DNA of 64,000 bases. Source: Hysterangium stoloniferum (taxonomy: Eukaryota; Basidiomycota; Agaricomycetes; Hysterangiales; Hysterangiaceae). Position numbers and translations under genes: made by a program. The DNA lies in the NCBI GenBank assembly GCA_015178975.1, contig WHVD01000011.1, positions 1 through 64,000 on the forward strand, written 5' to 3'. This document shows, in pieces, positions 2,152 through 63,537 of the stretch (positions within the stretch are counted from its first letter, which is position 1; each line of letters begins with the position of its first letter). Under the pieces are notes generated by a model, which had not been told where the DNA came from, ran no database searches, and saw nothing but the letters and a program-made list of their open reading frames with translations.

Positions 2152-2770
2152 CCGCGTTGGGTGAAGGGGTATCTAAAGCATAGAGATTCCTGAAAACCGG
2201 GTCCTTTGAATAACCCTCTAGAAATTTCTTTATATATCCCTCCTCGATGCTGATTAGTAGCTGAGGATGACGCAATGCGAAGTCGGACTCGTCTTCCTGG
2301 TCGTTCCTTATTGCGTTATGAGTATCCCATTCTGACCGTCGGACCTTTTGAGTTACTCCGAAAGGCTCCATAGAATCGAGTATGGTAGAGAAGACCGCTT
2401 TCTTAGCGGGTTCGTCTTTCCATAGTTTTTCCTCAGTATTCTTGTCCAGAGAAGTCGAGGTGATAGCCTGCAAATCATCTCTAATAGGGCTCACGAAGGC
2501 TGGTACCCGAGGGAGTCTGGACAGTGGATCCACGTTGCTGTGAACTCTCCCTGCTCGATGCAAAATCTCGAGACCTGGAAATGCAGCGTATATCGCCCCC
2601 CATGCGGCTAGTCGACGATTAGTGTTCTCGTAAGATCTAGCCCATTGCAGAGCTGCATGGTCCGTAATGAGCAGGACATGTTCACCTTCAATGAAAGGTT
2701 GAAAGTGGACCAGTCCCTCCTTTGCTGCTAATGCTTCCCGTTCAGTAGCAGAATAGTTACGCTCCAGCGC
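2051..2770 (-). pseudogene. E1 RNase H and connection to integrase, frame-broken
   Basis: From about 2770 down to 2051 one minus-strand frame is open and encodes the RNase H core: NYSATEREALAAKEG (catalytic Glu) and LLITDHAALQWAR (catalytic Asp), then the typical linker ending HRAGRVHSNVDPLSRLPR. The frame differs from both the RT ORF upstream and the integrase ORF downstream, so one-base changes near 2770 and 2130 disconnect it. The part between 2770 and 2950 is open in yet another frame. Without these changes it would be continuous with RT and integrase, as in ordinary gypsy pol. Confidence 0.7.
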
Positions 2771-2946
2771 TTTTCAGCGTGCGACTCCAATATGCAATGA
2801 CTCGTTCAACAGTAACTTCGGTCGCCTCAAAAGTGGATCCCCACGAATCCGACCACTCAATCTCGGGCTGTTTGGTTTTGTACCGATGAACAAAGGATGG
2901 CACGTCCTGCGCACGGTCAAAAGCCAATTTGGCTTGGGCATAGATT

Positions 2947-4947
2947 TTATGTGTCCACTAAATCTCCTAAAGCCATCTTCTGGACTTGTTGGAGGCAACA
3001 ACCCAAGGCAAAATCCGAAGCGTCCGTATACAATCGGTAGGGCATCCCACTAACTGGATGTCCCAACACTGGAGCTGATCCTAATGCGGTTTTAACATCC
3101 TCATAAGCTCGGACATGTTCAGCAGTCCACGTCCAAGGTGTTCCCTTTTTTAGGAGCGAGAATAAAGGGGACACCATCCATGAATAAAATGGTATATATG
3201 CTGAAAAGTAAAGGACCATTCCAAGGAACCGTTGTAGATCAGAAACCTTAGTGGGTGGGGCCAATTCCAATATAGCGCGAACTTTTTCTTGGTGGGTTGA
3301 AAAACCCAGCCTAGATACTTTATGACCCAATAACAATATCGAATTATATCCGATAAAACATTTCTTGGGAGAGAGAGTGATACCGGCCGAAGCGATAGCG
3401 CCAAGCACCTGATTCAGGTGAAGCAAATGATCATCCCAGTTCTTAGAGAATATGACTATGTCATCGATGTAGACTAAACAAAAAATCCACAAGTAGGGTG
3501 CTAGAACTGTTTGCATGACGCGCTGAAATGTAGAGGGGCCGTTTCTGAGCCCAAATGGCATCCTTTTAAATTGCCACAGCCCTCTATGGGATCTAAAGGC
3601 TGTTTTGGGCTTATCGTCCTCCAACATTTCTAATTGAGTAAACCCGGCCAGCGCATCGAAAGAAGAAAGAACATTTGACCCCGACAGCGCTTGCATAATC
3701 TCCGATTGACGTGGTAAAGGGAATTCGTCTGGAACAGTGAGATGGTTAAGTTTCCGATAGTCGATGACCACCCGCGGTTTACCATTGCGATATACTACAA
3801 AGGCTGGCGCTCCCCAGGGGCTTTTAGATGGCTCAATGACACCCTGTTCGAACCAGGTATCCATTTGCTCGTCTATAACTCTCCTATTGGCAGGGGACGA
3901 GGGGAACATAGGCATGGATATGGGCTGAGCGCCCTCTTTCAAGGGGACAGGGACTCTACATTCCACTTGCCCTAACCGTCCGTCGACTCCGAAAGCCTTA
4001 ACGTTCTCAGTCAAAACTGATCTGAGACGTGGCAGGACCTCCGTTGGTATATCCGGTCCCAAATTGACTAACTTGTGAAGATCCTCTGAGGCAAATTTCT
4101 CATTATCAGCCACTGCAGCCGTCTTAGGACCAGGCGGTTCGAAATCGTCTGCAATCTCTGGTTCAACAGGTGGCTTAGGTCTTTCTGAGGCGACTTGACG
4201 GTCCTCCTCAAGTTGAGAGAGACTTTCAATAAGGTGTGCGATCTTGGTCGCGCCTGCTACCATTAAACCTTTCTCCTCGAGTGACCTGGGCTTGTGAGCC
4301 CAACGAGCAGGGTCATGAATTATCCCTATTGTCTCCCCTCGTCGGATAGTCTTAGGGGTTAGCGATGGATTGGCTAAAGGTACTGCCGCACTATTCCTTG
4401 AAATTGCCGTGATTGGTGTGGCTAATATAGAACCGTCCTCGTTTTGCAGTACAATTCCTTCAACAATCCATTCCTCGCCCTTTAGATCTTCAACAAAAAT
4501 AGGCACTAGTCTGGCTGACTCTGGATCGATAGTGCAATCCTCCAAGGCTCGCGCGACTCTTTCAGTACGCACACCTTTATCGGGGAGAGAGGTGAGTTTG
4601 GATGACTCCTTCTCATGCTTCCCGAAAGGGGCCTTATTGACGGTGAAGGTCAAAGGTTGAGGTTCCTTAGAAGAGCTGGCTGGAATAAAACCCTGTCGTC
4701 CCGGGAGAATAAGTCTAGATCCCAACGGCTGATCTCTTAGAGTACCAATTTCATAATTAATATGGAAGTCTTCTCCCAAAAGAATTGGCACCGTCATTCC
4801 TCTAACGACATAAGTTTCTGCCGCGAACTTCAGTAACGTTCCACTGTCGTCCTCCAGGTAAATGGGGACATTAACATATCCGATAACCTTAGCGTTACCC
4901 GTGAGCTGAATTAGACGTAATTTGAGTCCTTGTTTCAACTTATACAT
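2947..4947 (-). CDS. E1 protease C-terminal part and reverse transcriptase
   Basis: A 666-aa ORF. Residues 1-75 continue an aspartic protease fold (VPILLGEDFHINYEIG). About 260 residues of linker follow, longer than in E3. The RT domain covers roughly 340-520, with RVVIDYRKLNHL, the KRMPFGLRNGPSTFQRVM region and the intact catalytic motif VYIDD. The tether to RNase H begins near residue 600 (YRLYTDASDFALG, first catalytic Asp). It reverse-transcribes the element RNA inside virus-like particles. The ORF begins out of frame with the upstream gag-protease ORF, the break falling within the protease active-site loop, and ends at a TAA produced by a frame change at about 2950. Confidence 0.88.
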   Translation of the reverse strand: MYKLKQGLKLRLIQLTGNAKVIGYVNVPIYLEDDSGTLLKFAAETYVVRGMTVPILLGEDFHINYEIGTLRDQPLGSRLILPGRQGFIPASSSKEPQPLTFTVNKAPFGKHEKESSKLTSLPDKGVRTERVARALEDCTIDPESARLVPIFVEDLKGEEWIVEGIVLQNEDGSILATPITAISRNSAAVPLANPSLTPKTIRRGETIGIIHDPARWAHKPRSLEEKGLMVAGATKIAHLIESLSQLEEDRQVASERPKPPVEPEIADDFEPPGPKTAAVADNEKFASEDLHKLVNLGPDIPTEVLPRLRSVLTENVKAFGVDGRLGQVECRVPVPLKEGAQPISMPMFPSSPANRRVIDEQMDTWFEQGVIEPSKSPWGAPAFVVYRNGKPRVVIDYRKLNHLTVPDEFPLPRQSEIMQALSGSNVLSSFDALAGFTQLEMLEDDKPKTAFRSHRGLWQFKRMPFGLRNGPSTFQRVMQTVLAPYLWIFCLVYIDDIVIFSKNWDDHLLHLNQVLGAIASAGITLSPKKCFIGYNSILLLGHKVSRLGFSTHQEKVRAILELAPPTKVSDLQRFLGMVLYFSAYIPFYSWMVSPLFSLLKKGTPWTWTAEHVRAYEDVKTALGSAPVLGHPVSGMPYRLYTDASDFALGCCLQQVQKMALGDLVDT

Positions 4948-6235
4948 GCCCTGCAGTTCCTTGTAGAATTCCTCCGATATAAGGGAAAGATCCGCTCCCG
5001 ATGTCCATTCGAATTTTAACGCGTTCGGGTGAATCGGGAGTTCCTACATGACCGAAAACATGGAGCGCTGCAACTCCTATGCTAGAGTAACCACTGGGAG
5101 GATCCCGTTTTCGATAAAGGATTGTAGTATCCTCCTTCATCAGACGACTGGGACGAGGGTATTGGATTCGAGGCCTCTTACTTTCCTTGCGCAGGGACAA
5201 GATTACGTTCCTGCGTTCACTTCGGCAAGGAACACGCTTCGAAGGGGAATCCAATACTGGATCATCGTCGCTGTCCTCCGAATCCGAATTCTCGTACGGT
5301 AGTAAATCGGGGGGGTTCCCGGGATCAAACGGGAACGTGTCAACATCAGCTCCAGGCGAACAGAGCGAATTCGAACTGATTTGTTCGTGAGAATCTCCAG
5401 TCTGACAGTAGTCCTCGGTCAGGCCTTCAAGGTCCTGCCGATGAACACTCAGCCGGTCTCCTTTTTCGAAGAAATCTGCGGCGAGTATGGATACGTAAGC
5501 TTCTGACAGAAGAGCTTCACCAGTCGTTCGATTTTCCTCCCTCACTAATTTGTCTTCGACATGGGGCGAATAAACGGAAACAAAAGTCAATTCGTCATCA
5601 GAGTTATTTACTTGTCCTTGTATAGATAGTCCATGAACCGCTTCATATAACCTTTGCTCCTCAGCTTCCTCCGACATATCCTGTGCGGAGCATTTGTTGA
5701 TAGAGACATAATGAGACATTTTGCCAGCTTGAGGGCAGTCTATCTTAAAATGCTCCGGACTTCCACATATCCAACATTCCTTGGTGGGTTTGATCGAACT
5801 CCTCTTGTTACTCCTCTCGAAGAACATTTTTCCGTGACGCTTTCCCTGTTTTGGATCAGCGACGTCTGGAACGGTCCTTCTCGTCGAGCCTCTCTCGTTA
5901 GTCTCACTAACGAGAATATGGTTAGGTGAAGAGGAGTCGCCGGTGACTCTAAAATCCAATTCTTGACCCTCCGATAACATTACGTGCGGTTTCTGGAACC
6001 TGTAACGTTCCCGGTGTGTTTGGACCCAAGCGTTAATCAGAGCTTCTTGCAGGTTATTAGCATAAGTCTGTAAACTCATGATATTATCGATGGGTTGTCC
6101 TTGAAGAAGGTAGAGCCATTCCGTAGGCAGTGTGAGAATGAGTCTGCGTGTCTCATCCCCTCTGTCCTGGTGGAACCCGTACAGGAAACGATAAAGTTTA
6201 ACTCTCCAGTTGGATATAGTGGACGGGTGTCTCAC
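4940..6235 (-). CDS. E1 gag C-terminal part, zinc knuckle and start of protease
   Basis: A 431-aa ORF. The start continues a retrotransposon gag capsid domain (RVKLYRFLYGFHQD). A CCHC zinc knuckle of spacing C-X2-C-X4-H-X4-C (CWICGSPEHFKIDC) follows near residue 155 and would bind element RNA. The C-terminus reaches the protease active site, MDIGSG, where the expected frame is lost by one base. It overlaps the upstream gag ORF (6198-7265) by 38 bp in a different frame. This could be a mutation or a programmed +1 shift, but no clear shift signal is seen. Confidence 0.75.
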   Translation of the reverse strand: MRHPSTISNWRVKLYRFLYGFHQDRGDETRRLILTLPTEWLYLLQGQPIDNIMSLQTYANNLQEALINAWVQTHRERYRFQKPHVMLSEGQELDFRVTGDSSSPNHILVSETNERGSTRRTVPDVADPKQGKRHGKMFFERSNKRSSIKPTKECWICGSPEHFKIDCPQAGKMSHYVSINKCSAQDMSEEAEEQRLYEAVHGLSIQGQVNNSDDELTFVSVYSPHVEDKLVREENRTTGEALLSEAYVSILAADFFEKGDRLSVHRQDLEGLTEDYCQTGDSHEQISSNSLCSPGADVDTFPFDPGNPPDLLPYENSDSEDSDDDPVLDSPSKRVPCRSERRNVILSLRKESKRPRIQYPRPSRLMKEDTTILYRKRDPPSGYSSIGVAALHVFGHVGTPDSPERVKIRMDIGSGSFPYIGGILQGTAGHV

Positions 6236-7265
6236 GATCGTGACCAGCCTGTCGAAATTTCATAGCTTCCCATTCTAAGGCTAAGGATTCACGCCAACGA
6301 GTTCCGAGCAATCCTTCGACGATACCCCAAAGAAACGACCCATGAGATTGACTGAATTCAGTACGATGCTCACGGTCTAAGGTGCTCCACCAGACCTTAG
6401 CGTGCCCCTTGAGTCGTCTTGGCAGAGCAACTCCTAAGATCGCACTCATAGAGTCTGATATCTCCGCGAGACTCATGATATCCATGATATAGTCCAGGGC
6501 TTCGGATTGAGCTCCATCGTATTCAGGGAGATCAGACCATTTGATCTTGAGGTCGTTGGTGTTAAGAGTGACCTTCTTGTCCTTAGGTAAGTCATCAATA
6601 AGCGCGCTAGCTCGAGACCGCATCGGAGTTCGAAAAGGGGTATTAGGCACTCCATTGTGGCGTTCCCCACGTCCTGAGTTCCCTCCCCGGTCTGAAGTAT
6701 TCGAACTCCCAGATGAATCGCTAGGGGGTCCTCCTGATGGCAAGAAAGGGTTTGAAGCGATCGGTAGAGAATGGCGGGGACCGTCTGGATTAAGCGATCC
6801 TCGACCAGCAACTGGGCCAGCTATGCCCTCAGTAAATGCCGTGGAGAAGGACGGTCGACCCTTGTTGGCGACTGATCGGTTTCTGAGAGTGGTCACTTCA
6901 TCCCTGAAGTTAGGGCTGTTGGAGACTCCCTCAAATGCGACGCGAGAGCGGTGATCTCCCTGGAAAGACGTTAGGCCTGGTTCCATCGCGATTTGTCTCT
7001 CGATCTCCGTCGCGTTCAGAAGTCGACACGGCTGGGGTTGATGGAAGGGAGCGCAGACCTCAATCCTCTTCTCCTGAAGGCGTTCTATTACTTGCGTCCT
7101 CAAATCCAGTGGAAAATCCTCCAATATTACAGGACGGTTGAGAGAATGCAGAAAACGAGTATCAGGGGACCCGTTTAAGTTGCGAACAAACGAATTGGTC
7201 GTGGAGATAGGCGAATCAGGGACCTGGATCGAGTCGTTATAGGGGAGGAGTACCTCTAAAACCAT
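6198..7265 (-). CDS. E1 gag N-terminal part (capsid)
   Basis: A 355-aa ORF. Its first 200 residues are low-complexity and rich in Pro, Ser, Gly and Arg. The C-terminal part is a recognisable retrotransposon gag domain (LPEYDGAQSEALDYI, then GHAKVWWSTLDREH and LEWEAMKFRQAGHD), which assembles the particle. It starts four bases after the stop of ORF1 (TGA, TAAG, ATG), in a different frame, so translation would need reinitiation or a shift. The capsid domain is completed only after a +1 change into the ORF at 4940-6235. Confidence 0.75.
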   Translation of the reverse strand: MVLEVLLPYNDSIQVPDSPISTTNSFVRNLNGSPDTRFLHSLNRPVILEDFPLDLRTQVIERLQEKRIEVCAPFHQPQPCRLLNATEIERQIAMEPGLTSFQGDHRSRVAFEGVSNSPNFRDEVTTLRNRSVANKGRPSFSTAFTEGIAGPVAGRGSLNPDGPRHSLPIASNPFLPSGGPPSDSSGSSNTSDRGGNSGRGERHNGVPNTPFRTPMRSRASALIDDLPKDKKVTLNTNDLKIKWSDLPEYDGAQSEALDYIMDIMSLAEISDSMSAILGVALPRRLKGHAKVWWSTLDREHRTEFSQSHGSFLWGIVEGLLGTRWRESLALEWEAMKFRQAGHDRETPVHYIQLES

Positions 7266-7269
7266 CTTA

Positions 7270-8163
7270 TCAAGTCTTCTTTGGTTTCGCTTTCAACCGA
7301 CCTCTTAAAGTGAGGTATGCCAGCGATAGATTCGGCGTGACTCCATTGAGAGACTCCTCCAACATACGGATGTACATGTACTGGTAGTCAACCTTAGGCA
7401 CAACATGATCTCCGCCAAGCAGGACATGCAGGATCTGTAACACATCATCATGCGTACGAAGTGCTTCAAGGAACATAGAAAACACTTCCCGCTTGAGAAT
7501 TCTTCTTCCTCCTTCCATAGTAATCGTCACCTCGTTCGACCATTCAGGAATCGATTGGGTCAAATCCTCAAGGTTCCCTGGTCGCGTGAATAAATCCCGC
7601 GCCGATAAAATCACTTGATAACGCCCTAACCAGACTGCTACAGTCTCCGGTAGAATAGGGTAATCCGTACTGTACTCCTCCACGAAGGGGGTAACCTGAT
7701 CCTCGGGGATTCGATCGGTGTAGTACATATCCCATTTGTAATCGATGGGCTGGGCGTAAACCATATGACCTCCGAGGAACTGCTTAAGGATGACCTGTCT
7801 CGGAGGGAATCTGAGAACGGGCGTGGGTGCTCGATTAGACTCAATGTTAACTCCAGGGGTGTCCAACTGCTCGAGTAATGAGCGTTCCTCAGGTGGATCG
7901 GGGGGAATGTTCATTGACGATCCAACTACTACTCCGGGGGAATCCTCTGGAGGAGGTGATCCTGGAGGAAGCTGGGGAATGTTCGTAGATGATCCAGCTA
8001 CTACTCCGGGGGAATCCTCCGGAGGAGCTGATCCTTGAAAAGTCGACGAAGACTTCCTCAGGGTGACGTTACGGGGTGGTTCTAGGTTAAAAGATTTTTG
8101 ACGAGGCATGGAGCTACCAGGCGTTGATGAAGGCCTAGACGTTTGATTCTTGCCCGTAGTCAT
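7270..8163 (-). CDS. E1 ORF1, 297-aa protein upstream of gag, function unknown
   Basis: This is the first ORF after the 5' LTR and leader, starting at the ATG at 8163. Residues 1-105 are Ser/Pro-rich and include two copies of a 23-aa unit around PPEDSPGVVAGSS (DNA copies about 7906-7964 and 7975-8033, 69 bp apart). Residues 115-297 are folded-looking and leucine-rich, with many aromatic and acidic residues. I recognise no domain, zinc finger or catalytic motif. Its place between LTR and gag, nearly touching the gag start, suggests it is part of the element transcript, perhaps a gag-like or accessory protein. That role is a guess. Confidence 0.6.
   Translation of the reverse strand: MTTGKNQTSRPSSTPGSSMPRQKSFNLEPPRNVTLRKSSSTFQGSAPPEDSPGVVAGSSTNIPQLPPGSPPPEDSPGVVVGSSMNIPPDPPEERSLLEQLDTPGVNIESNRAPTPVLRFPPRQVILKQFLGGHMVYAQPIDYKWDMYYTDRIPEDQVTPFVEEYSTDYPILPETVAVWLGRYQVILSARDLFTRPGNLEDLTQSIPEWSNEVTITMEGGRRILKREVFSMFLEALRTHDDVLQILHVLLGGDHVVPKVDYQYMYIRMLEESLNGVTPNLSLAYLTLRGRLKAKPKKT
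7906..8033. repeat. Two-copy 69-bp tandem repeat within E1 ORF1
   Basis: Copies at 7906-7964 and 7975-8033 are in frame and nearly identical, giving the duplicated Pro/Ser-rich 23-aa unit of ORF1. Confidence 0.85.
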
Positions 8164-8225
8164 TCGCGTGTCCAGGTCTTAGTAGTCAAATAATAAGTTT
8201 TTCCTCGTAGGAAAAGAACGGTCCG

Positions 8226-14303: not shown

Positions 14304-14694
14304 TGTATTAGGACTGGAAAACCTGCCAGGCTCCAGACCCCATCCTATATGCATCCAACTCTCTGCAGCCACCAAATCACAGCTAACTGGACAACCTGCC
14401 AGGACCCAGATGTCACATTTGTCTATGCCTGACTTTCTGTCTTATGTATGCACCAGTCATTGGAAGACCTGCTGGGACCTGTGCACATCAACCCTGTCTA
14501 TATCCAACTTTGTTCCACACACCAGTCACCAGACTCTACCCAAACAACCTGTCAGTGTTCTAACTGAGTCCCATTCCCATTATGGTCAAATGACCTGTCA
14601 TGCTTTCAGACCCTGCTCCCATCCCATTCCATCCCTAACACCTAGTTTGGTGTTTTCTACTCCTGTTTCATATTTACCTGTTTGTCTGTAATTA

Positions 14695-16268
14695 CAGTAG
14701 GGGACAAAACTGTCCCAATGTTTTGTTAATTCTGATTAAATGGTTTATTACTGGTCAAATAAATTTCCTACAATTGTGGAAATATTCTCAGATATATCTG
14801 AACATACTAACCCTCACATATCCAAAGATCATGTAATTTGGATGGGAATTGGTATCACAGTGAATATTTAAAAATAACCAATCATTGGGACAGTTTTGTC
14901 CCCTACTCTTTTCACTGATTTTACTTTATCATAACATCCACTAAAGGAATGGAAAAATTCCAAAATAAATCATGTTACATATATTCAATGATATGTCACA
15001 GTCACAGTCACATTTCAACTATTACTCTCATCATGAAAGCTATTTCTCCTCTCAAAAGAGGATAGACCATCTCTCTCCTCCAAAATAGACTCTCCAATAG
15101 GAATGTGGTCTCTATAATACATAGGTCTTAGCAAGTCTACTAATAAGTAGAATTGGTCAGGAGATGGACATAGACAAATAAAACCTGAAAGGAGGATATC
15201 CTTCCAAGCTTTCTCCTATTGATTAAAGGAGGATCATACATCAAATCACCTCTGGCAAGTTAGATAATGCTGTCTAGGCCATATATTGTGCAAAATTCAT
15301 CCTTCCTTCAATCTCTGCAAGCATTCCCACTCCATTCCAACCCATACAGCCCCACACCATGATATTTCCACCTCCATACTTGACTGTAGGTTAGGTTGTC
15401 CTATAAGAAAGTGGTTCTCCAGCTTTCTTCTACACATATTGATGTCTATCTGACCCAATATTATTGATATTGGTCTCATCAGACTAAAAGACTGTTTTCC
15501 AATTATCCACAGTCCATTTTTGGTACTTGAAGGCAAAGCTTAACCTGGCTTTCTATGTTGAGCCTTGAGCAAGGGCCTTTTTGCTTTGACTACAGGGTTT
15601 AAACCATGCTGTTTCAAGGTCCTCCTGACTGTTTTGGATGAGGCATAGGATTCATTGATGGAATTGATGAAGTGTGTGGCCTGGACAGCATTATCTAACT
15701 TGCCAGAGGTGATTTGATGTATGATCCTCCTTTAATCAATAGGAGAAAGCTTGGAAGGATATCCTCCTTTCAGGTTTTATTTGTTTATATCCATCTCCTG
15801 ACCAATTCTACTTATTAGTAGATTTGCTAAGACCCATTATAGAGGCCACATTCCTATTGGAGAGTCCATTTTGGAAGAGAGAGATGGCCTATCCTCTTTT
15901 GAGGGGAGAAATAGCTTTCATGATGAGAGTAATAGTTGAAATGTGACTGTGACTGTCACATATCAATTAGAACATTGAATACATGTCACATGATTTATTT
16001 TGGAAATTTTCCATTCCTCTAGTGGATGTTATGATAGAGTAAAATCAGTAAAAAGAGTAGGGGACAAAGCTGTCCCAATGATTGGTTATTTTTAAATATT
16101 CACTGTGATACCAACTCCCATCCAAATTACATGATCTTTGGATATGCGAGGGTTGGTATGTTCAGGTATATCTGAGAATATTCCCACAATTGTAGAAAAT
16201 TTATTTGACCAGTAATAAACCATTTAATCAGAATTAACAAAACATTGGGACAGTTTTGTCCCCTACTG
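14695..16268 (-). mobile_element. Fold-back Tc1/mariner element with ~585-bp inverted arms
   Basis: The ends CAGTAGGGGACAAAACTG and its inverted copy are flanked by TA. The left arm (to about 15281) is a long imperfect inverted copy of the right arm (from about 15677), so the two could pair over about 585 bp around a 395-bp centre. As in the other Tc1 element, each tip is itself a cassette of about 212 bp capped inside by an inverted copy of the tip (about 14881-14906 and 16055-16080). The right arm has the real 5' end of the transposase; the left arm duplicates it, replacing the 3' end. The left boundary is uncertain by two bases. Confidence 0.85.
15297..15921 (-). pseudogene. Tc1-type transposase remnant of the fold-back element
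   Basis: On the minus strand from an ATG at 15921: SPLKRG, then FQNGLSNRNVASIMGLS (helix-turn-helix), then VRRTLKQHGLNPVVKAKRP and the catalytic start [24 protein letters not shown]. There are several stops and frame changes, including TAG for the Trp before SDE. The second Asp and the Glu are absent because the inverted duplicate arm replaces the C-terminus. It cannot encode an active enzyme. Confidence 0.8.
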
Positions 16269-16506
16269 TATTACCCGATTTGGTATTACATACATTTCAC
16301 AGTCTATATAATCTAGCTAATGTTGTACATACAATCTGGTCAGAAAATTGACTAAGATTCTCCCCAATAACTTAGCATATATCCCACTCTTTATCTTTGA
16401 ACTACTGTACAACCTTCTCTTCATTGTCACAGGGCTTACAGGCCACCCAACTCACCATACAACCTATTGACCTCCATGGCTTTCTCTGGCTTCTACTGAA
16501 ACCTCC

Positions 16507-19500
16507 ATGCCTCCAAAAATCTCTCTCATTAATGCTTTGGCATTTGTTAGGGTGAGTAAACTGGATGGTTCACAGTGTTTTTCGATCAGCTTAAAAGTTG
16601 ATGAAGCATCTGGATGTTTTGCAACTCCAGAATTATCTGAGTTAAAAGCCGACCTGGAAGGAGTTCCCAAAAAATACCATGATTTCACGAACATTTTCAG
16701 TAAGCAAAAAGCTGACCGGCTTGCACCACATAGGCCCTACGACTTAAAAATTGATATTGAGCCCAGTTCAAACCCTCCGTTAGGACCTATTTACCCATTA
16801 TCCCAATCGGAACTTTCATCTATTTGGGAGTTCCTGGATGAACATCTGTCGATAGGTTTTATCCATCCCTCAAAGTCTCTGTATGGAGCACCCGTCCTTT
16901 TCGTCAGAAAGAAGGATGGCTCCCTTTGACTCTGTGTCGATTTCAGAGGATTAAATTCCATCACACAGAAAGATAAGTATCCACTTCCACTCGTTACCGA
17001 TTTACTCGACGCCCCATGGAAAGCTCGGATCTACACCAAAATAGACCTCAAACATGCCTATCATTTGGTCTGAATTGCCGAGGGCGATGAATGGAAAACT
17101 GCTTTTCGGACTCGCTATGGATCCTTTGAATGGTTGGTTATGCCATTCAGCCTTACCAACGCCCCTTCCGCTTTTCAACGTTTTGTTAATGATATATTTT
17201 CCGACATGCTTGACGTATGTGTTATAGTCTATTTGGATGACATTTTGGTATTTTCTGAGGATCCTGCTCTTCACGATGAACAGGTCCATGAAGTTTTCCG
17301 AAGACTCTGTAAAAACGGTCTTTTCGCCAACAGCAAAAAATGCTACTTTGACATAGATTCTATTGAATACTTAGGTTTCATTATCGGACCTGATGGTCTC
17401 CGTATGGATGAAACCAAGGTTCAAGTTGTCCGTGACTGGCCCAAACCACGGAAAGTCAAGGACATTCAGTCATTTTTAGGTTTCGCCAACTTTTACCATC
17501 GTTTTATTCGGAACTACTCAGACATTACAGTACCGCTCACTCGTCTTACCCGTAAAACTCAACCATGGGTCTTTGACGACAAGTGCTGCTCCACCTGCCA
17601 GACTTTAAAAAATGCTTTCACTTCTGCCCCGATTCTTTCCCATTGGAAACCTGATGTCCCGATTATTGTGGAAACCGATACTTCCGATTATGCAATTGCT
17701 GCGATTCTTTCCATTCAAGATTCCGATGGTGAAATTCATCCGGTTGCATTTCTTTCTCGGACACTTTCAGTGTCCAAACTCAACTACGACGTTCATGATA
17801 AGGAACTTTTGGCAATTTTCGAAGCTTTCAAACATTGGCGCCATTATCTCGAAGGTTCCGCAACTCCCGTTGACATTGTTACCGATCACAAAAATCTCAA
17901 ATATTTTTCTACCACTAAACTTTTAACCCGCTGGCAAGCCCACTGGTCTGAATTCCTTTCTGCTTTCAACATGATTATCCATTTCCGACCCGGACATCTT
18001 GGTGGAGACCAGATGCCATGACTCGACGATGGGACGTCTATCCTAAAGAGGGGGAAAGTAACTATGCCGTTGTTAATCCGCATAACTTGAAACCGGTTTT
18101 TACAATGCAACAACTTTCCGCATCTATTCGAGCAACTTCCCTCTACTATCCAATTATGTGTAGCGTCATGATTATGGACATTGAGCAATTACATCAAGAT
18201 ATCCTTTTCACACTCACTTCCGATCTGGTTCTCAAACCACACCTAGAAGTTCCTGACAATCCTGACCAACCCTGATGGTCACAAGACTCTCAAGGTTTTA
18301 TCCGTCTCGATGGACGTATCTACATTCCAGATTCCAACAATCTCCGACTCCGCATACTTCAGTATAAACACAATCATCCAATCTCCGGACATTACGGCAT
18401 TAACAATACTCTTGGTTTAATCCGTAGAGAATACACTTGGCCCAACCTCTGAGATTTTGTAACCCAGTTCTGTAAGTCATGCACCACCTGCTTACACTCC
18501 AAGACCCAGAGGCATAAGCTGTACGGCCTTCTCAAGCAACTCCCAATACCAGAAAAACCCTGGAACTCAATTTCCATGGATTTTATCGAAAAACTCCCAA
18601 CTTCTGAAGGCTTTACATCCATTCTAGTTGTTGTGGATCGATTCTCGAAACAAGGCATTTTCATACCCACTCATGATACAATCACGTCCTTACAATTAGC
18701 GGAACTTTTCATTATTCACGTATTTTCCAAACATGGAGTTCCGTCTCACATAACTTCCGATTGAGGCTCCAAGTTCATCTCCCATTTCTTCCAGGCCCTC
18801 AGAAAAGCCCTCAACATGAAACTACACTTCACCTTGGGATAGCACCCAGAAGGTGATGGACAAATGGAACGTGTAAATCAAACATTGGAACAATATCTCC
18901 ACATCTATTGCAATTATCAACAGGACAACTGGAAATCCCTTCTTCCGATCGCAGAATTCGCCTACAATAACTCTTTGAATACACCTACTGGCGTATCTCC
19001 TTTTTTCGCCAATAAAGGCTATAATCCAAATCTTACTGTACATTCTGAATGAGATTTGGCTTCTGTCCGAGCTCAAGAATTTATTACCGACCTCGACGAA
19101 TTACATCAAGAACTTCGGAAAGCTATTTCTTCCGCACAGGAATATTATCAACGTTCTGTGGACAAAAACAGGATCCCGCCTCCTAATTTTAAAATCAGTG
19201 ATCAGGTTTTTGTAAAAGCTCAATTCTTCCGTACTACCTGACCTTCTAAAAAACTCGCTGAGAAATTCTTAGGCCCTTTTGAAATTATAGCACAAGCCGG
19301 TTCACTCTCATGGACTCTCCGACTTCCCGATAGTATGCGAGCAGTTCACCCCATCTTCTACGTTTCCATGTTAGAACCCTGTGTTCCTAACAAAATCCCA
19401 GAACGTATTCAACCTCCATCCCCTCCAGTCATCATTGACGGAGAACCCGAATTTGAAGTTTCTGAAATTTTGGATTCTAAAATCAACAATCGCCGACGTA

Positions 19501-19658
19501 CTTGTAAATTGCTCTATTTAGTCAAATGGGCAGGTTATGAAGGTACCGACGAGGAAACTTCATGGATATTGGCCACGGAACTCGGACACGCTATGGAAAT
19601 TGTTACTGATTTCCACACAGCTTATCCAAGCAAACCCAGACCTTTATCATCACTCTGA
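16507..19658 (+). pseudogene. E2 pol: RT, RNase H, integrase, chromodomain
   Basis: The reading starts in the protease-RT linker (ISLINALAF) and covers the RT (VIVYLDDILVFS intact), RNase H (IVETDTSDYAIAAI, DKELLAIFEAF, VTDHKNLKYF), integrase (zinc region, SMDFIEKLP, then the second Asp at ITSD, then [13 protein letters not shown]) and chromodomain (FEVSEILDSK, LVKWAGYEGTDEE). In-frame stops are at 16927, 17071, 18273, 18450, 18762, 18840 (TAG), 19050 and 19239; seven of the eight are TGA at an Arg of E3. One base is missing near 18012. The final stop is at 19656. Non-functional. Confidence 0.9.
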
Positions 19659-21071: not shown

Positions 21072-21615
21072 TGTTACGACCCATTCCCGGATGTTTCAAT
21101 ATCCGACTTCCAATCTCTGACTACGGAACATCATAGTTACCGTATCATCCACATTCTTCCCTTGTTCTGCATTTGGTAATTTGTCTGTTGACAAGTATTC
21201 ACTCGTTTGTTTATTATATTCCCATTTCGGAATATTGTCTCCCTAATATGTCTTATTGTATTTCCATTTTAAGAACACTTCTGTTTCCATCTTATTATGG
21301 TCTTAGTTTGTAGTACAATAATGAGTAGACTTATATTAGTTTCTGCGAATTTGTACTTTACCTTAGATCTAATATCGACTTAGTTTCTTATTCCTTCTCC
21401 CGTCTTTCTGTACACTCGATATTCAGAACTCTTCGGAACTCTGAATATCCATATCTTCCATTGTAAGTCTCACTTCTGAAATTAAGGACTTTGAGTGTTT
21501 GCGTAGAGGTGCAGCATATAAGCTGCAGCCGATGTCCTGACCCTATCCAATAGTTCCCGACTTCCCAGTGACTTTCCGATAGTTCCAGAATAAGTTCCCG
21601 ACACGGCACTTAACA
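21072..21615 (+). repeat. 3' LTR of E2 (544 bp)
   Basis: It starts TGTTACGACC and ends GCACTTAACA, the same termini as the E3 LTR read in element orientation. It shares the block GTGCAGCATATAAGCTGCAG with the LTR-A group in diverged form. The downstream flank is an LTR-B fragment. Confidence 0.85.
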
Positions 21616-39800: not shown

Positions 39801-40262
39801 GTCGGGATAATAATGGAATGTCTTGCGTGATAAATGGCGAAAGGGCATACACACGCGGTGAAAGACTTCAAAGGCCACAATATCGACCCACACGCAGTGA
39901 AAGACTTCAAACGCCACCACACAGCTCATCTCACGATCTGACCGGCATATAACATGGCGCCTGCTGGCTGGCTTCACGGGCGATATGACACAGTGTGGCG
40001 GGCCCAAAGTCGGGATAATAATGGAATTCTTGAGTAATAAATAGCGAAAGGGCATAAACACGCAGTGAAAGACTTCAAACGCCACCACACAGCTCATCTC
40101 ACGATCTGACCGGCATATAACATGGCGCCCGCTGGCTGGCTTCACGGGCGATATGACGTGCGCAGTGAAAGACTTCAAAGTCACAATATCGACCCACATC
40201 TCATCTCATGATCTGGCCGGCATATAACATGGCGCCCGCTGGTGGCGTCACGGGCGATATGA
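39801..40262. repeat. Tandem repeat array, ~208-bp unit with ~100-bp core
   Basis: GTCGGGATAATAATGGAAT starts units at 39801 and 40009. A core from GCAGTGAAAGACTTCAAA to CACGGGCGATATGAC occurs three times (ending at about 39989, 40157 and 40262). The third copy lacks the left half. Confidence 0.88.
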
Positions 40263-53880: not shown

Positions 53881-54608
53881 TGTTAAGAACTGAAAACTGA
53901 CTGATGTCGGTTGGCCAACAGGGACCGATTGGAAGGACTTGGCTTCAGCTTATGTGCTGCGCCCTTGCAAATGTCTGTTGAGTGTCCTTAAATTTCAGGC
54001 GGGCGAAGACTAATCCTAACGAGTTCCTTTCAGTGAGATACCGATCGGGACTGAAGGTTAAGTCAAGTGTCAGGCCAAGGGTCGGCGACCGAGAGTGGAT
54101 GAGTGCATGCAAAGGCGGATGAGGGGATTCTTAGTACAAGACTGCTAGAGGTGTAAGAGGGTATTCTGAGTCGATATTCTGATTGCCTAGTAACTACAAC
54201 TACAGCGGGTTCATATACAAGTATCAGGCATCTAACTAGGAGAAGAGCGGAACAGGGTATTGACAATAAGCTTGACTAGGAATGGGAAGTTTATGATTAG
54301 TTCGGAGGCCGAAGAGATAACTGAGAGCGTAATTACGGGAAAAGGAAATAGTTCGAGGGTTACAAGTATATATAGGCATATGTGAAACATAGGATAGAAC
54401 GGATCATCATAATAAAAGGGACGTATCAAAAGTTTAACCAGATAGTACGAGTATATTTTGACGTGGGTGTAAATGGAGTTTGATCACCGCAAAAGCATAC
54501 GTCAGCATCGGGGGCGATGGTTTCCGATGTGGTAACTTGAGCGATAACTTGAATCGTCGATAGGTGGCGATAACCTCAGGGCTGAACGGCTGCAACACGG
54601 TCGTAACA
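53881..54608 (+). repeat. Solo LTR-A (728 bp), target duplication CAATC
   Basis: TGTTAAGAACTG to GGTCGTAACA, flanked by CAATC (53876-53880, 54609-54613). It is close to the E3 LTR over its whole length, with scattered differences. Confidence 0.93.
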
Positions 54609-56577: not shown

Positions 56578-57299
56578 TGTTAAGAACTGGAAACTGACTA
56601 ATGTCGGTGGCCGACAGGGACCGATCGGAAGGACTTGGCTTCAGCTTATGGGCTGCGCCCTCGCAAATATCTGTAGGATGTCCTTAAATTTTGGGCAGGC
56701 GAAGACTAGTCCTAGTGAGTACCTTTCGGCGTGATACCGATCGGAATCGAAGGACAAGTCGGGCGTCGGGCCAAGGGGTCGGGGCCGGGAGTGGGCGAGC
56801 GCACGCGAAGGCGGATGGGGGAAGTCTTAGTATGAGACTGATACAGGTGTATGAGGGTATTCTGAGTCGATATTCTGATTGCCTAGTAACTACAATTACA
56901 GCGGGTTCATATACAAGTAACAGGCGTCTGGAAAATACTAATGGGGAGAAGGGCGGAACACGGTATTAACAATAAGCTTGACTAGGAACGGGAAGTTTAT
57001 GATTAGTTCGGAGGCCGATGATAACCGAGAGCGGGATTACGATAAAAGGAAATGGTTCGAGGACTACAAATATAGATAGACATATGCGAAACATAAGATT
57101 GAACAGATCAACATAATAAAAGGGGACGTATCAAAGTTTGACCAGACAATACGAGTTATTTTGACGTGGGCGTAAACGGAGTTTGATCTTCGCGAAACAT
57201 TCGTCAGCTTCGGGGCCGATGGTTTCCGAGAGGATGACTTGAAACGTTGACAAGTGGTGATAACCTCGGGGCCGATAGGGTTGCGACACGGTCGTAACA
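56578..57299 (-). repeat. 3' LTR of E3 (722 bp)
   Basis: Plus strand TGTTAAGAACTGG to GGTCGTAACA. In element orientation it starts TGTTACGACC and ends CTTAACA. It is identical to 63576-64000 over their overlap except for A versus G in GGGCRGGCG (near 56696). Confidence 0.95.
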
Positions 57300-57313
57300 G
57301 TATCTCCTCTTTT
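57300..57313 (-). promoter_or_regulatory. Polypurine tract of E3
   Basis: AAAAGAGGAGATAC on the minus strand directly precedes the 3' LTR. It is preceded by GGGATTTCGGCC, which is also present at the same place in E2. Confidence 0.8.
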
Positions 57314-57472
57314 GGCCGAAATCCCAAGGAGGCCGAAAATCTAGATCCCGTACGTAAAAACTTGTCGGGTACGGCTGGGTGTGTCAAACATCATGTGACT
57401 CGGCAAAAGTTTGTATATAAAAGTTTGAGAGTTCCTGGCGCTTGAAATTCCACTTCCCTTCCTTTAACCACC
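57314..57472 (+). promoter_or_regulatory. Promoter region of the E3 antisense gene
   Basis: Between LTR and ATG lies GGCCGAAATCCCA (shared with E2), then a TATA box TATATAAAAG at 57414-57423, 50-59 nt before the ATG at 57473, and a pyrimidine-rich leader. This suggests transcription of the antisense gene from its own promoter, not from the LTR. Confidence 0.6.
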
Positions 57473-58452
57473 ATGACCATAGGCTCGGGGTCAAAGCCCT
57501 TCCCGGTTAGGTTAACAGTTGCGCCCATGTCGGCGCCGAGTGGTACGGCGAACGCGAAGGAGCATCGGCGTATACTCGAGCAGAAGAAAAAGGCGCGTGA
57601 AGAGGAGGAGCGGAAAGAGAAGGAGGAGTTGGCGGCCATCGAGGCCGAGGAAAAGAAACAGGCGGCAGAAGAGGCCGCGCGCAAGCACTGGGAAGCAGTG
57701 CTTGCAAAGAACAAGCAGCAGGAGGCCGATCGGGCACGGGAGGAGGCGGCGAAAAAGAAGCGGGAGGGAAAAGTGAGTCGGCTCTGGTGTCTTTTGCGAA
57801 CCTTACTGACAATATCTGTTAGCGCAAGGCTGCAACGCCTTCGGAGTCCGATGACGAAGAGGGAGAGGAGGACGAGGAGGATGCACCGGGGCCGTCGAGC
57901 CCCAAGGTGGGTTCGGTTTCCTAAAAAAACTTCCTAAATAATTTTTTTTTTCTATAGAAACAAAAGCAGGCCCCCAAGGCGGGGCCCGAAAATGACCTTA
58001 AGTGCAATCGGTGCACGAAACGGGGTCGAACCTGTCATCCCCGGACCAATGGTCGGGGCCGCACTTGTCAAGAGTGCGCTGATCAGAAGCTTGGGTGTGT
58101 TTTCCCGGGGGCCGATGGCTCATTCCAGGAGCGACAGGCCGATGCTCTAGAAGAGCAAAACCGCCTCATGCGGACCTACTTCTCGGAGACGAGCCGGTAC
58201 CGATATGAGATGTTGCGACAACAAGGGCTCATAACTGAGCAATTGCGACTCTTGGGCATCGGGCTGGAGAAACAGACCAGCGTTATCGAGTCTCTCGGTG
58301 GTCAACTTGAGCAGTATTTGGAAGTCTCGAGTTGCGGTGGGCATGAAATTGGGGTTTCGGAGAAGGTCGGTGGTGTGGTATCGGTGGCTGTCGGTGCGGA
58401 GGAGGGTTCGGAGGTCGGAGAGGAGGGAGAAGTTGTAGAGGGAGAAACTTAG
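57473..58452 (+). CDS. E3 antisense accessory protein with coiled coil and Zn2Cys6-like cluster
   Basis: Three exons, 57473-57772, 57823-57906 and 57958-58452, with GT-AG introns of 50 and 51 nt, join in frame to 292 aa. Residues 20-100 are a charged coiled coil (KKAREEEERKEKEELAAIEA) ending KREGK. Exon 2 is acidic and ends GPSSPK. Exon 3 has CNRC, GRTC, GRTCQEC and LGC: C-X2-C-X6-C-X10-C-X2-C-X6-C at about residues 143-174, the spacing of fungal Zn(II)2Cys6 clusters that bind CGG-type sites. A second helical region and an acidic Gly/Glu/Val tail follow. It is tail-to-tail with pol, 100 bp apart. DNA binding and control of the element are inferred; another zinc-binding role is possible. Confidence 0.82.
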
Positions 58453-58552: not shown

Positions 58553-61500
58553 TTATAAGGAATTGAGAGGACCGGGTTTGTTCGGATAAGCTTGGTGAAA
58601 CCCTAAAACGATTTCCGAGGCATTACCGAGCTCTGTAGCTAGGATCCATGAAGTTTCTTCATCTGTACCTTCATAGCCAGCCCATTTGACCAAATAAAGT
58701 AATTTGCATGAGTGTCGGCGATTGTCGATTTTTGAGTCTAGGATTTCTGATATCTCGAATTCGGGTTCCCCATCAATAATCACGGGTGGAGGTGGTGGTT
58801 GTATGCGATCCGGTATATTGTTAGGAACACAAGGTTCTAACATAGATACATGAAATACCGGGTGCACTGCACGCATGTTGTCGGGGAGCCGAAGCGTCCA
58901 TGAAAGCGTGCCGGCTTGTGCTATAACTTCAAAAGGACCTAAATATTTTTCAGAGAGCTTCTTAGAAGGTCTAGTAGTTCGGAAAAACTCGGCTTTAACG
59001 AATACTCGGTCTCCGATCTTGAAATCAGGAGGTGGAAGGCGGTTTTTATCCGCAGACTGTTGGTATCGTTCTTGAGCCATTGCGATAGTTTTACGAAGTT
59101 CTTGATGTAGCTCGTCGAGGTTTGTAACAAAGTCTTGAGCACGGGCGGATGCGAGATCGCGTTCCGGGTGTATTGCGATGTTGGGGTTGTAGCCTTTATT
59201 TGCGAAGAAAGGCGAAATGCCAGTAGTGGCATTCGGTGCGTTGTTGTATGCGAATTCGGCCAGCGGTAGTAGTGATTTCCAATTGTCTTGTTGATAGTTG
59301 CAATAGACACGGATGTATTGCTCCAAGGTTTGATTCATGCGTTCTGTTTGTCCATCGCCTTCCGGGTGATAGCCCGAAGTGAAATGTAACTTCATGTCTA
59401 GTGCTTTTCCGAGTGACCTAAAGAAGTGAGAGACAAACTCAGATCCGCGATCGGATGTGACATGCGACGGAACACCATGCTTGGAAAATACATGGGTAAC
59501 GAATAATTCAGCTAACTGTACAGATGTTATCGTGTCATATGTTGGAATGAAAATACTTTGCTTTGAGAGCCGATCCACAACAACTAGGATTGCTGTGTGA
59601 CCTTCGGATGCCGGTAGGTGCTCGATAAAATCCATAGAAATCGAGTTCCAGGGTTTTTCCAGTAGCGGTAATTGTTTGAGTAGGCCATATGGTTTGTGTC
59701 GCTGTGATTTAGAGCGTAAACATGTAGTACAGGATTTACAATAGTGCTTAACAAAATCTCGGATGCCGGGCCATGTATATTCTCTTCTAATGAGTGAGAG
59801 GGTCTTATTGAGGCCGAAATGTCCTGAGATTGGGTGGTCGTGCTTATGTTGTAGGATTCGCAGCCAAAGGGTGTCCGAATCCGGTACATAAATGCGATTG
59901 TCAAGTCGAATGAAACCTTGTGAGTCTAATGACCATCGGGGCTGATCGGGGTCGGACGGGTTATCGAGGTGTGCTTTGGTGACTGGGTCTAATGGAATTG
60001 CCGATAGTATATCTTGATGTAACTTTTCGGTATCCATAAGGATAACACTTCGCAAGACTGGATGAATGAGGTAAGTGGCTCGGATAGATGCGGACAGTTG
60101 TTCCGATGAAAACATAGGTTTGAAATTATGCGGGTTAACTGTGGCGTAGTCGCTACTCCCCTCTTTAGGATAGACGTCCCATCGTCTAGTCATAGCGTCA
60201 GGTTTTCCACCAAGGCGGCCGGGACGGAAGCGAATTACCATGTTGAAAGCGGAGAGGTATTCGGACCATCGAGCTTGTCGACGGGTGAGAAGTTTTGTGG
60301 TTGAAAAGTAAACTAAATTTTTGTGGTCTGTAATAACATCTACCGGGTGGGCCGAGCCCTCCAAATAATGTCGCCATGTCTTGAAAGCTTCAAATATTGC
60401 GAGTAATTCCTTATCGTGAACGTCGTAGTTGAGTTCGGGCGCCGAAAATTTGCGAGACAGAAAAGCTACTGGGTGTACTTCACCATCGGTGTCCAGAATG
60501 GACAATATCGCGGCAAGCGCATAGTCCGAAGCATCAGTTTCCACGATGAGTTGAACGTCGGGTTTCCAGTGCGACAAAATAGGGGCGGATGTAAACGCAC
60601 TTTTCAATTCCTGGAATGCCGATCGGCATTCTTCGGAGAAATTCCACGGGGTGTCTTTGCGAGTAAGACGAGTGAGCGGAACGGTAATTTTTGAGTAATT
60701 GTGAATGAAACGGCGATAAAAATTGGCGAAGCCTAAAAAGGATTGAATATCTTTAACCTTTCGGGGTTCCGGCCAATCTTGAATGACTTGAATTTTAGCG
60801 TCGTCCATGCGGAGACCATCGGGTCCCATCATGAAGCCTAAGTATTCAACCGTGTCGACATCAAAAGAACATTTTTTACCATTCGCAAAAAGACCATGTT
60901 TTCGGAGTCTTCGGAGGACTTCACGGATGTGTTCATCATGAAGTGTAGGGTCTTCGGAGAAGATGAGGATGTCGTCTAGGTACACAATGACAAAGACGTC
61001 AAGGAGGTCGGAAAAGACGTCGTTGATAAAACGTTGAAAGACCGACGGAGCGTTGGTGAGGCCGAAAGGCATTACTAACCATTCAAAGGAGCCATAGCGA
61101 GTGCGAAAAGCCGTTTTCCATTCGTCGCCTTCGGCGATCCGAACCAAATGATAGGCATGTTTGAGATCTATCTTTGTATAAATTCGGGCCTTCCGAGGGG
61201 CGTCGAGTAAATCGGAGATTAATGGTAATGGGTACTTGTCTTTTCGAGTAATCGCGTTTAGTCCTCGAAAGTCAACGCAAAGTCGAAGGGAACCGTCTTT
61301 TTTCCGAACGAATAGGACAGGGGCTCCATAGGGAGACTTTGAGGGTCGGATAAAACCTATAGCCAAATGTTCATCCAAGAAATCTCGGATAGCCGATAAT
61401 TCGGACTGCGAGAGAGGATAAACTGGGCCTAGGGGCGGATGTGAACCATCTTCAATATCAATTTTCAAATCGTAAGGCCTGTGAGGGGCGAGTCGATCGG

Positions 61501-62248
61501 CTTTTTGTTTACTGAAGACATCTGCAAATTCATGGTATTTTTTAGGAACACCTTCTAAATCTGCGGTCGGTTCAGTCACCGGGGATGCAAAGCGACCGGT
61601 GACTTCGTCAACTTTAAGATTGACTGTAAATGCTCGGGAGCCGTCCAGCTTGATGGCTCTCATAAAAGCTGCGGCGTTTATTAGAGAGATGGGCGGCGAA
61701 GAGCTCGGATTTGCCACGGGGGCCGGAGGTGCTGTAGAGGCCATATTTGCTGAAACAGGCGGAAACGGACCAGTCATATCGGGTGCCGACGGGGTTCGGA
61801 AATGGATACTGCCCAATACCCAATCAATCAACGGATTGTAGCGGGTGAGCCAGTTATGTCCTAGAACCACGGAGCAGCTCGAGTCCAACTGTGTTACAAA
61901 AAACGTAACTGTCTGAAAGGTTCCACACGGGAACCGAAGTCGGAGTTCACAGGCTTGCGAGATTACGGAGTTTGAGGTACCATCAAAAAGTCGGAGCGGG
62001 ATCGGATCTATTGCATAAGTTTTCAACTGTTTTTTTCAGGAAAAACTTGTATCTATAAAACAATGGGTTGAACCTGAATCTATGAGAGCTCGAAAAGTGA
62101 AACTCCCGAGAGGTTCCGAAGTAAGATTTATGAACAAGGAATTAGGATCATACAAGGCGGATGCGTTAAGATGACAATTTTCCGGTGTGCGAGGAGATTC
62201 AACGCAACTCTCCAACCGCACGGAATCCAGAGAGTTGCTTAATCTTTT
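58553..62248 (-). CDS. E3 pol: protease, RT, RNase H, integrase, chromodomain
   Basis: In the -1 frame relative to gag. The protease has ALIDSGSTHCFI, then an in-frame TGA at 62036-62038, after which the same frame runs 1157 codons without a stop. RT: LRLCVDFRGLNAI, MPFGLTNAPSVFQRF, VIVYLDDILIFS. RNase H: LIVETDASDYALAAI, DKELLAIFEAF, VITDHKNLVYF. Integrase: HHCC region ending CKSCTTC, Asp in SMDFIEHLP, Asp in VTSDRGSEF, Glu in HPEGDGQTERMNQ. Chromodomain: FEISEILDSK, LVKWAGYEGTDEE. All catalytic residues are present. The TGA follows TTT TCC and probably replaced CGA (Arg). As it stands the copy is probably non-autonomous unless the stop is read through. Confidence 0.93.
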
Positions 62249-62250
62249 TT
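62187..62250 (-). promoter_or_regulatory. Candidate -1 ribosomal frameshift signal between gag and pol
   Basis: Gag ends TCG AAA AAA GAT TAA. The A6 run (62245-62250) allows a slip to the pol frame, read AAA A-GA TTA. Beginning right after the gag stop is a perfect 9-bp stem (GCAACTCTC at 62238-62230 with GAGAGTTGC at 62212-62204) and a 17-nt loop. Loop bases GTGCG can pair with CGCAC downstream (62191-62187), giving a possible pseudoknot. Confidence 0.65.
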
Positions 62251-63537
62251 CGACTCGGCAGCCGGCTTGGCCGGTTGTGAGGTCGTGGCCGTATTGGCCG
62301 ATCGGGCTTTTGTGGCTTTTGGGCATGCGGCGACTCGGTGTCCGGGATCTGCACACAACAAACAAAGGTTGTTGTCCATTCGGCGTTGCTTTTCCTGTGG
62401 TAGGAGCTTGCCATCGGAGCCGAGTTTGCCAGTTAAGTCGGGTTTGTCTTTGTCTTGAGACTTATTCGACTGTTTGCCCTTACCTTTTTTGTCGTTAGAC
62501 CCTTTGTTTTCGGACTTCTTGTCGGAAGTTGAGTTGCCAGTGTTATTGGTGTTTTGATTACCAGACTTATTGGCATTTTTGTTGTCCGATGATTTTTTGT
62601 CCGACGGGTTTTCGCGACTGATTTCCGAACGTCGTTCCCAGTATCGAGCGTCTGCGTTTTGGGCTTTCAGGCGCATGAGAGGGAGGGTTTTCGGCTTGCC
62701 GGTCTCTCCTTTGGAAACTTCGTCTTTGAGGCGAGACGGAAGGCCGGAGTAAAACTGGTAACGGAGGGCCGAATCGCCCCAGTCGCAACGCGCGGCGAGG
62801 TTGTTGAACTGGACAATATAATCGGTGATGCGCTGAGTGTCTTTCATTTTGAGATTAGAAAGCGCGGTTTCTGCATCACCGGTTTGGTCGTAGGGGCCGA
62901 AGTTAATTTCGAGTTCCTCGACAAAGGCATCCCAATCGTGGAGCCAATCGGGGTCTTCAGAGGTGAGGCCAGAAAATGCGGGTTCGAACCAGGCTGCTGC
63001 GGAATCCTTAAGGTATGAGAGTGCGAAGTTTACCTTTCGGTCATCCGTTGCGAATGCAGCCGGGCGGTCCCGAAAGTTGAATCGACATTGCATAAGGAAT
63101 GTCGGCAATTTCTTCGGGTTTGAGCCAGTAAATGGCTCGGGTTTGTTGACTCGGGTTTGCCCAGGTTCCTTTTCCTTGATATTGCTTTTAAGGAATTCAT
63201 TAAGGGATCCTAGTGTACCTGAAAACAATTCCCATGTTTCTTCAGGGTCGAGAGCCGGTTTCTTCTTTGCAGACTTCTTGGAGCCACTAGCCTGAGGTTG
63301 GTCGCCATCCTCGGGTTCGTGTTCCAAAACTGGTTGATTGTTAATCTCCTCAGTTGCTTCGGGATCGGTTGCTTCAGTTACTTCTTCAGCATCGCCGGTA
63401 ATCTCCACAAAGCGAGATTCTTCGGAGGTTTCTGGTAGCGGAGTTTTCTGAGTAGCTCAGGCTGTATACAGAAAAGGAGACTTGAGAGTGGAAGATTCTG
63501 CTTCGCCGCTAGGCTTGGCATTTTTCCTCGGAGGCAT
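62239..63537 (-). CDS. E3 gag (capsid and zinc knuckle)
   Basis: The likely start is ATG at 63537 (MPPRKNAKPSGE). An in-frame TGA at codon 27 (63457-63459) interrupts it; the next in-frame ATG is at 63408. The body has an acidic N-terminus, the capsid region (VNKPEPFTGSNPKKLPTFL, AWFEPAFSGL, YQFYSGLPSRLKDEV), a Lys/Asn/Ser-rich linker and a CCHC knuckle CLLCADPGHRVAAC near the end. Gag forms the particle and packages the RNA. If translation starts at 63408 most of the protein is still made. The stop TAA at 62239-62241 lies within the frameshift signal. Confidence 0.9.

Follow-up and report, generated by a model that had tools for sequence, protein, structure and literature searches.

An intron-containing antisense gene with a Zn2Cys6-like cysteine cluster in Ty3/gypsy retrotransposons of Hysterangium stoloniferum

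The E3 element, its antisense gene and the E2 homologue

The window analysed here, a 64,000-nucleotide stretch of a Hysterangium stoloniferum contig, contains a young Ty3/gypsy element, E3, whose two long terminal repeats (LTRs, 722 bp each) differ by three mismatches (99.58% identity) and which is bordered by the target site duplication (TSD) CTTCA. E3 combines gag, the RT-RNase H-integrase order, a chromodomain and LTRs with a TSD, as is characteristic of Ty3/gypsy chromodomain elements; the chromodomain scores 23.4 bits, slightly under the Pfam cut-off of 25.1. An additional gene, antisense to gag-pol, lies between pol and the 3′ LTR. The element is laid out as follows.

56578-57299, minus strand: 722-bp LTR (TG...CA) on the antisense-gene side, 3′ relative to pol
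57300-57472, plus strand: leader of the antisense gene, with the pol-strand polypurine tract adjoining the LTR and two GGCCGAAA boxes
57473-57772, plus strand: antisense exon 1, a charged E/K/R-rich stretch with the basic end KKKREGK
57823-57906, plus strand: antisense exon 2, with the basic start RKA, an acidic stretch and GPSSPK at the intron 2 border
57958-58452, plus strand: antisense exon 3, with a six-cysteine cluster (residues 144-175), a long predicted helix, an acidic tail and the stop
58553-62035, minus strand: pol, with RT, RNase H, integrase and a chromodomain-like C-terminus (profile search)
62239-63456, minus strand: gag (Retrotrans_gag, 2.5e-13)
63576-64297 of the contig, minus strand: second LTR (5′ relative to pol); the window ends at 64000

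The antisense gene (57473-58452, plus strand) is predicted from its sequence to consist of three exons encoding 292 aa, and it meets pol tail-to-tail with a gap of 100 nt between its stop and the end of pol. The exon set chosen is one among several frame-keeping splice choices, and its junctions recur in the decayed element E2 of the same window and in a third subfamily, E4. An earlier note on this DNA had placed a spliced antisense gene between pol and the 3′ LTR of a Ty3/gypsy element, and the LTRs, the TSD, the gag and pol profiles and the predicted 292-aa gene bear out this position. The antisense ATG is 173 nt from the edge of the LTR, and a TATA-like TATATAAAAG is located at 57414, 59 nt upstream of the ATG; ATATAAAAG is kept in 39 of 40 E3-type copies. 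Near the polypurine tract, GGCCGAAATCCCA at 57314-57326 is common to E3 and E2. Opposite exon 1 there is a minus-strand open frame of 180 codons (57391-57933), which looks incidental, the reverse frames having six to eight stop-bearing codons gene-wide when E3 and E4 are compared.

A homologous arrangement is found in E2, the remnants of which are given below.

16648-19655, plus strand: remnants of pol that meet the antisense gene tail-to-tail; I1 and I2 match E3 pol at 73-74%
20887-19754, minus strand: decayed antisense gene, exons 20887-20555, 20502-20449 and 20401-19754
21072-21615, plus strand: LTR adjoining the antisense gene, 544 bp

The E2 antisense gene carries an in-frame stop in each of exons 1 and 3. 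Its introns (52 and 47 nt) match those of E3 in phase and in their positions in the protein (REGK|RKA and GPSSPK|K), and GPSSPK at the border of intron 2 is identical in E3, E2 and E4. TATAAAA occurs 56 nt upstream of the E2 antisense ATG, a TATA sequence thus being present in both the E2 and the E3 types. The spacing of the cysteines, C-X2-C-X6-C-X10-C-X2-C-X6-C, is identical in the two elements. Between the E3 and E2 clusters there is 38% identity over 34 residues (E 9e-6, from a single comparison), and comparison of an E3-type with an E2-type profile gave a probability of 90.6% (E 1.3e-6); the shared spacing therefore reflects common descent and not two independent cases. Independent convergence of the spacing is ruled out by these matches together with the intron positions. 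E2 is accordingly the decayed homologue that the note had taken it to be. The acidic linker attributed to both proteins is evident in E3, as it is in E4; that of E2 is short and only mildly acidic.

The window also holds another gypsy element on the minus strand, E1 (736-8178), whose 736-2172 open reading frame has, as judged by eye, a C-terminus resembling a chromodomain; no antisense six-cysteine gene was seen by eye in positions 1-736, where the window edge cuts. A long inverted repeat has arms at 14693-15281 and 15677-16270 that are 95-97% complementary across a spacer of about 395 nt, and a hairpin RNA is possible. At 39890-40157 a 100-nt stretch occurs twice, 99% identical, with starts 168 nt apart.

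Copies across the genome and the pace of change

Relatives were sought in the window's own assembly (111 Mb). In all 39 fetched E3-type loci (L009-L047), among which some stop at contig ends and a few carry truncated pol, the antisense gene runs into pol tail-to-tail. The ATG, both GT and both AG dinucleotides and the six cysteines are kept in all 40 E3-type copies (the 39 fetched and that of the window), a set that comprises the best 40 of 296 candidates and leans to young copies. The spliced frame is intact in 31 of the 40; seven have stops and four have exon length changes, one having both. Searches with the exon 3 protein returned at least 150 places for each of the E2 and E3 types (the best 150 of 568 and 441 candidates, respectively). 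The third subfamily, E4 (represented by L054, which is without its first codons), has introns and cysteine spacing as in E3, and at least 15 more nearly full-length matches of 97% identity or above. The statement that the gene is conserved in two elements thus holds for E2 and E3 but understates its spread.

Among the exon 3 places listed, 95 of 150 of the E2 type and 101 of 150 of the E3 type have a listed pol C-terminus tail-to-tail within 1.5 kb; the pol comparison took in 289 of about 3,000 candidates, so that absence cannot be concluded for the 104 places where no neighbour is listed. A same-strand pol start within 1.5 kb was found at none of the 300 exon 3 places, among the matches listed. 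Taking pol as the starting point, an antisense neighbour is present at no fewer than 95 of 139 E2 pol places (139 of the 150 listed were used), rising to at least 120 of 139 with the matches of the P0003 search, and at no fewer than 101 of 150 E3 pol places, or at least 124 of 150 with E4-type matches added. By these lower bounds from the pol lists, most members of the family carry the antisense reading frame, and the tail-to-tail arrangement suggested earlier is upheld in this genome. Exchange of the antisense gene was considered for the 26 unmatched E3-type pol places and rejected on the basis of three of them: C101, C68 and C9 retain the 3′ end of the gene, and in C101, the one read through, about 490 bp have been lost internally.

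Protein searches, by a method that needs shared five-residue words, found no relatives outside the element copies of this genome, P0004 aside, and viral contigs yielded none. Two proteins bearing the name Hysterangium stoloniferum, P0003 (nr; Agaricomycetes) and P0004, came up in these searches. P0003 was considered as a relative from a second species and set aside, being a copy in the window's own genome: over 146 aa it matches G000:C2:1252619-1253056 at 100%, and the next best copy reaches 78%.

Comparison of E3 with E4 gives 138.3 synonymous differences over 197.8 sites (0.70) and 125.7 nonsynonymous differences over 645.2 sites (0.19), a dN/dS of about 0.11 whose value is rough, dS being saturated, though its direction is not. 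Differences at codon positions 1, 2 and 3 number 51, 65 and 148; the coding frame is free of stops, of which the two remaining forward frames have 10 and 17. Identity is 0.67-0.78 in the exons and 0.46-0.68 in the introns and 3′ flank. Judged from these alignments, the antisense protein is under protein-level selection between E3 and E4, because synonymous changes per site so far exceed nonsynonymous ones. Loss of a cluster cysteine was seen in none of the 40 copies, where the mean replacement rate predicts 7.6 losses and the rate at which the remaining residues of the cluster are replaced (0.0256) predicts 6.0. The note's expectation of selection is supported at the protein level between E3 and E4; the spacing shared by E2 and E3 is a matter of homology.

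Among the E3 copies themselves the picture is less even. Of 180 variants 78 are synonymous, compared with 60.3 expected under a null that keeps base and CpG context (P 0.006), and N/S relative to expectation is 0.55 for singletons, 1.13 for variants in two or three copies and 0.47 for those in four or more. The variant analysis of the 40 copies gave no depletion of stops. For the same three classes pN/pS is 0.33, 0.63 and 0.27 in the antisense gene and 0.31, 0.30 and 0.10 in pol. These variants indicate that the antisense gene is constrained within E3 copies, less so than pol and with an uneven signal; the dN/dS check proposed in the note thus gave a clear direction between subfamilies and a mixed one within E3. 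In the E2 type, exon 3 dN/dS is 0.18-0.46 in all 10 pairs among five sequences, a result of uncertain weight as the copies are decayed.

Over longer distances, exon 3 identity between E3 and E4 is 63% where that of the pol C-terminus is about 95%, and between E3 and four E2-type sequences it is 19-27% (19-20% for the E2 of the window and L051) where that of the pol C-terminus is 85%. On these sequence comparisons the antisense protein changes much faster than pol, yet its cysteines, introns and general plan stay.

The cysteine cluster and the motifs of the LTR

Zn2Cys6 domains are defined by the pattern C-X2-C-X6-C-X5-12-C-X2-C-X6-8-C, and their fold consists of two short helices around two zinc ions. 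Spacing of this type is present in all 40 E3-type copies, in E2, L050 and L051, and in E4; the exceptions are L052 and L053, each of which has lost one cysteine, and L049, which has a stop before the second. The antisense protein did not reach the Pfam Zn_clus (PF00172) cut-off (best E 0.41, in 1 of 12 members), a cut-off passed at 42 places of this genome. Profile comparison with Gal4 gave a probability of 1.8%, with little aligning besides the cysteines, and homology of a Gal4-like kind was rejected on that basis. AlphaFold2 models of E3 exon 3 place helices at residues 14-22 and 38-42, on the first and second C-X2-C pairs, followed by a 73-residue helix at 55-127; for the E2 type the helices are at 19-23, 40-44 and 87-155 (69 residues), with a strand at 29-31 beside the third cysteine. 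A short helix thus accompanies each C-X2-C pair, as would suit the fold, at low cluster pLDDT (42-52 in E3, 61-73 in the E2 type). Where the note had spoken of a binuclear zinc cluster, the cysteine spacing agrees and the profile searches do not; by its sequence the cluster is Zn2Cys6-like and not a proven member of that class.

Candidate target sites were sought in the DNA next to the gene. The hexamer GGCCGA occurs six times in the E3 LTR and leader against 0.46 expected, the best of all 6-mers (P 0.005 over all 6-mers); in the LTR alone P is 0.16. The E3 LTR also contains five CGG-N2/3-CCG sites, and for inverted CGG pairs pol (z 3.4) and gag (z 3.2) show as much enrichment as the LTR (z 2.7). 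In a set of 38 further LTR copies, divergence is 0.032 at CpG positions within the motif sites, which number only 20, and 0.053 at other CpG positions. The E2 LTR has neither the GGCCGA repeat nor CGG-N2/3-CCG sites, its best word being GCTGCA (P 0.048). An LTR-like copy at 53881-54605 is an old relative of the E3 LTR (77% over 300 nt) with two CGG-N3-CCG sites. The idea that an older LTR relative keeps CGG sites better was not clearly borne out, 16 of 20 motif CpG positions being kept against 61 of 84 others and, outside CpG, 8 of 10 motif positions against 518 of 608 others. The GGCCGA and CGG-N2/3-CCG sites are thus a weak lead on putative binding sites.

Candidate functions and known counterparts

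The anatomy of the gene is most simply read as encoding a protein that works in the nucleus as a dimer, on promoters belonging to the element itself. The gene would be transcribed from its own TATA promoter, situated downstream of the polypurine tract and ahead of the coding sequence, giving a spliced mRNA from the strand opposite gag-pol. The protein may enter the nucleus by means of its basic stretches, dimerise through the long helix and bind DNA with its Zn2Cys6-like cluster, thereby controlling the element, most likely at the level of LTR transcription, its own promoter or both. The introns would survive reverse transcription since the genomic RNA, made from the gag-pol strand, does not carry them as introns; antisense orientation would therefore let both pass intact, whereas introns on the sense strand would be lost because genomic RNA is spliced. 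Retention of all splice sites in 40 of 40 copies after repeated transposition fits such protection. Regulation of the element from within the nucleus is the likeliest role for the product. The fuller proposition, that this is a resident accessory gene whose spliced antisense mRNA encodes a nuclear, dimeric, Zn2Cys6-like DNA-binding protein controlling its chromodomain-type Ty3/gypsy family, is one to which we give about an even chance.

Other readings were weighed as well. A DNA- or chromatin-binding protein that shields the element from silencing or antagonises host defence would be expected to evolve fast, as do the anti-silencing VANC proteins of plant VANDAL transposons, and the contrast of exon 3 with the pol C-terminus (63% against about 95% for E3 and E4, 19-20% against 85% for the E3 and E2 types) and the absence from the E2 LTR of the motif repeated in the E3 LTR and leader are in keeping with this. 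Fast change also fits weak constraint, however, dS being saturated, and we consider a shielding role unlikely. Somewhat less probable still is a specific form of regulation in which a fast-evolving Zn2Cys6-like factor would bind subfamily-specific repeated sites in the element's own LTR and leader, in E3 GGCCGA or CGG-N2/3-CCG, and activate the element or undo its silencing, protein and sites changing together and the antisense strand permitting introns. A part in integration, through nuclear import of the pre-integration complex or tethering to chosen sites, would make use of the basic stretches and the zinc-cluster-like domain alongside the integrase core of E3; we hold it comparably doubtful, given that the integrase already has a chromodomain-like C-terminus.

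The layout also implies that the pol transcript should extend across the antisense gene as far as the 3′ LTR, a built-in overlap from which double-stranded RNA with the gag-pol transcript could arise and limit copy number, the antisense RNA alone mattering and the protein being incidental. Protein-level selection, the codon-position pattern and the conservation of the cysteines all speak against this, and it appears very improbable. Least credible is that the gene is a captured host gene carried without use. Stops do build up roughly as fast as in pol, which has 37 over at most 40 x 1160 codons where the antisense gene has 8 over 40 x 292, but the gene has been kept in three deeply diverged subfamilies under protein-level selection, and protein searches found no relative outside this genome's element copies other than P0004.

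Antisense accessory genes are already known from plant elements and from one fungal lineage. In Botrytis cinerea the gypsy element Boty has an antisense gene, brtn, described by Zhao et al. 2011 as cited in PMC7264820, PMC8365987 and PMC4227169. In these citing accounts Boty resembles E3 as a fungal LTR element with gag-pol, a chromodomain (PMC4227169) and an extra antisense gene; its host, unlike that of E3, is an ascomycete, and the likeness is one of described features. The Retand open reading frame with TRP28 (PF04195) is, as excerpted in PMC11963269, likewise antisense, located between pol and the 3′ LTR and predicted to bind DNA; it differs in belonging to plants and to a non-chromovirus lineage and in its domain, and that excerpt mentions no introns. 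Grande gene23 and the RIRE2 open reading frames share the antisense position but are from plants, and the review PMC7264820 reports no known domain for them; for gene23 it gives a promoter upstream and a nuclear product. The same two sources record that authors propose a regulatory role for antisense retrotransposon genes (PMC7264820, PMC11963269). They also name HTLV-1 HBZ, an antisense-encoded nuclear retroelement protein with which the comparison is functional, no homology being claimed (PMC11963269, PMC7264820).

The promoter of HBZ, unlike the candidate promoter in E3, is inside the 3′ LTR. HBZ is a bZIP protein. Gal4-type Zn2Cys6 factors (PF00172) resemble the E3 protein in cysteine spacing and in having a cluster followed by a long helix; the E3 protein differs from them in falling under the Pfam cut-off and aligning little beyond the cysteines. 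No zinc-cluster antisense gene of a fungal retrotransposon was found among the top matches in the open-access literature searched, and in this respect the novelty supposed by the note stands; brtn shows that fungal gypsy elements with an antisense gene are not in themselves new. As far as these searches show, what is new here is that such a gene has a Zn2Cys6-like cluster and a conserved pair of introns and belongs to an agaricomycete. Set against a slow pol, the fast change of the antisense protein points towards its coevolution with either the LTR or the host. An antisense gene shared by three or more subfamilies, which has introns, a candidate domain, a signal of selection and many young copies, makes the function of such genes testable.
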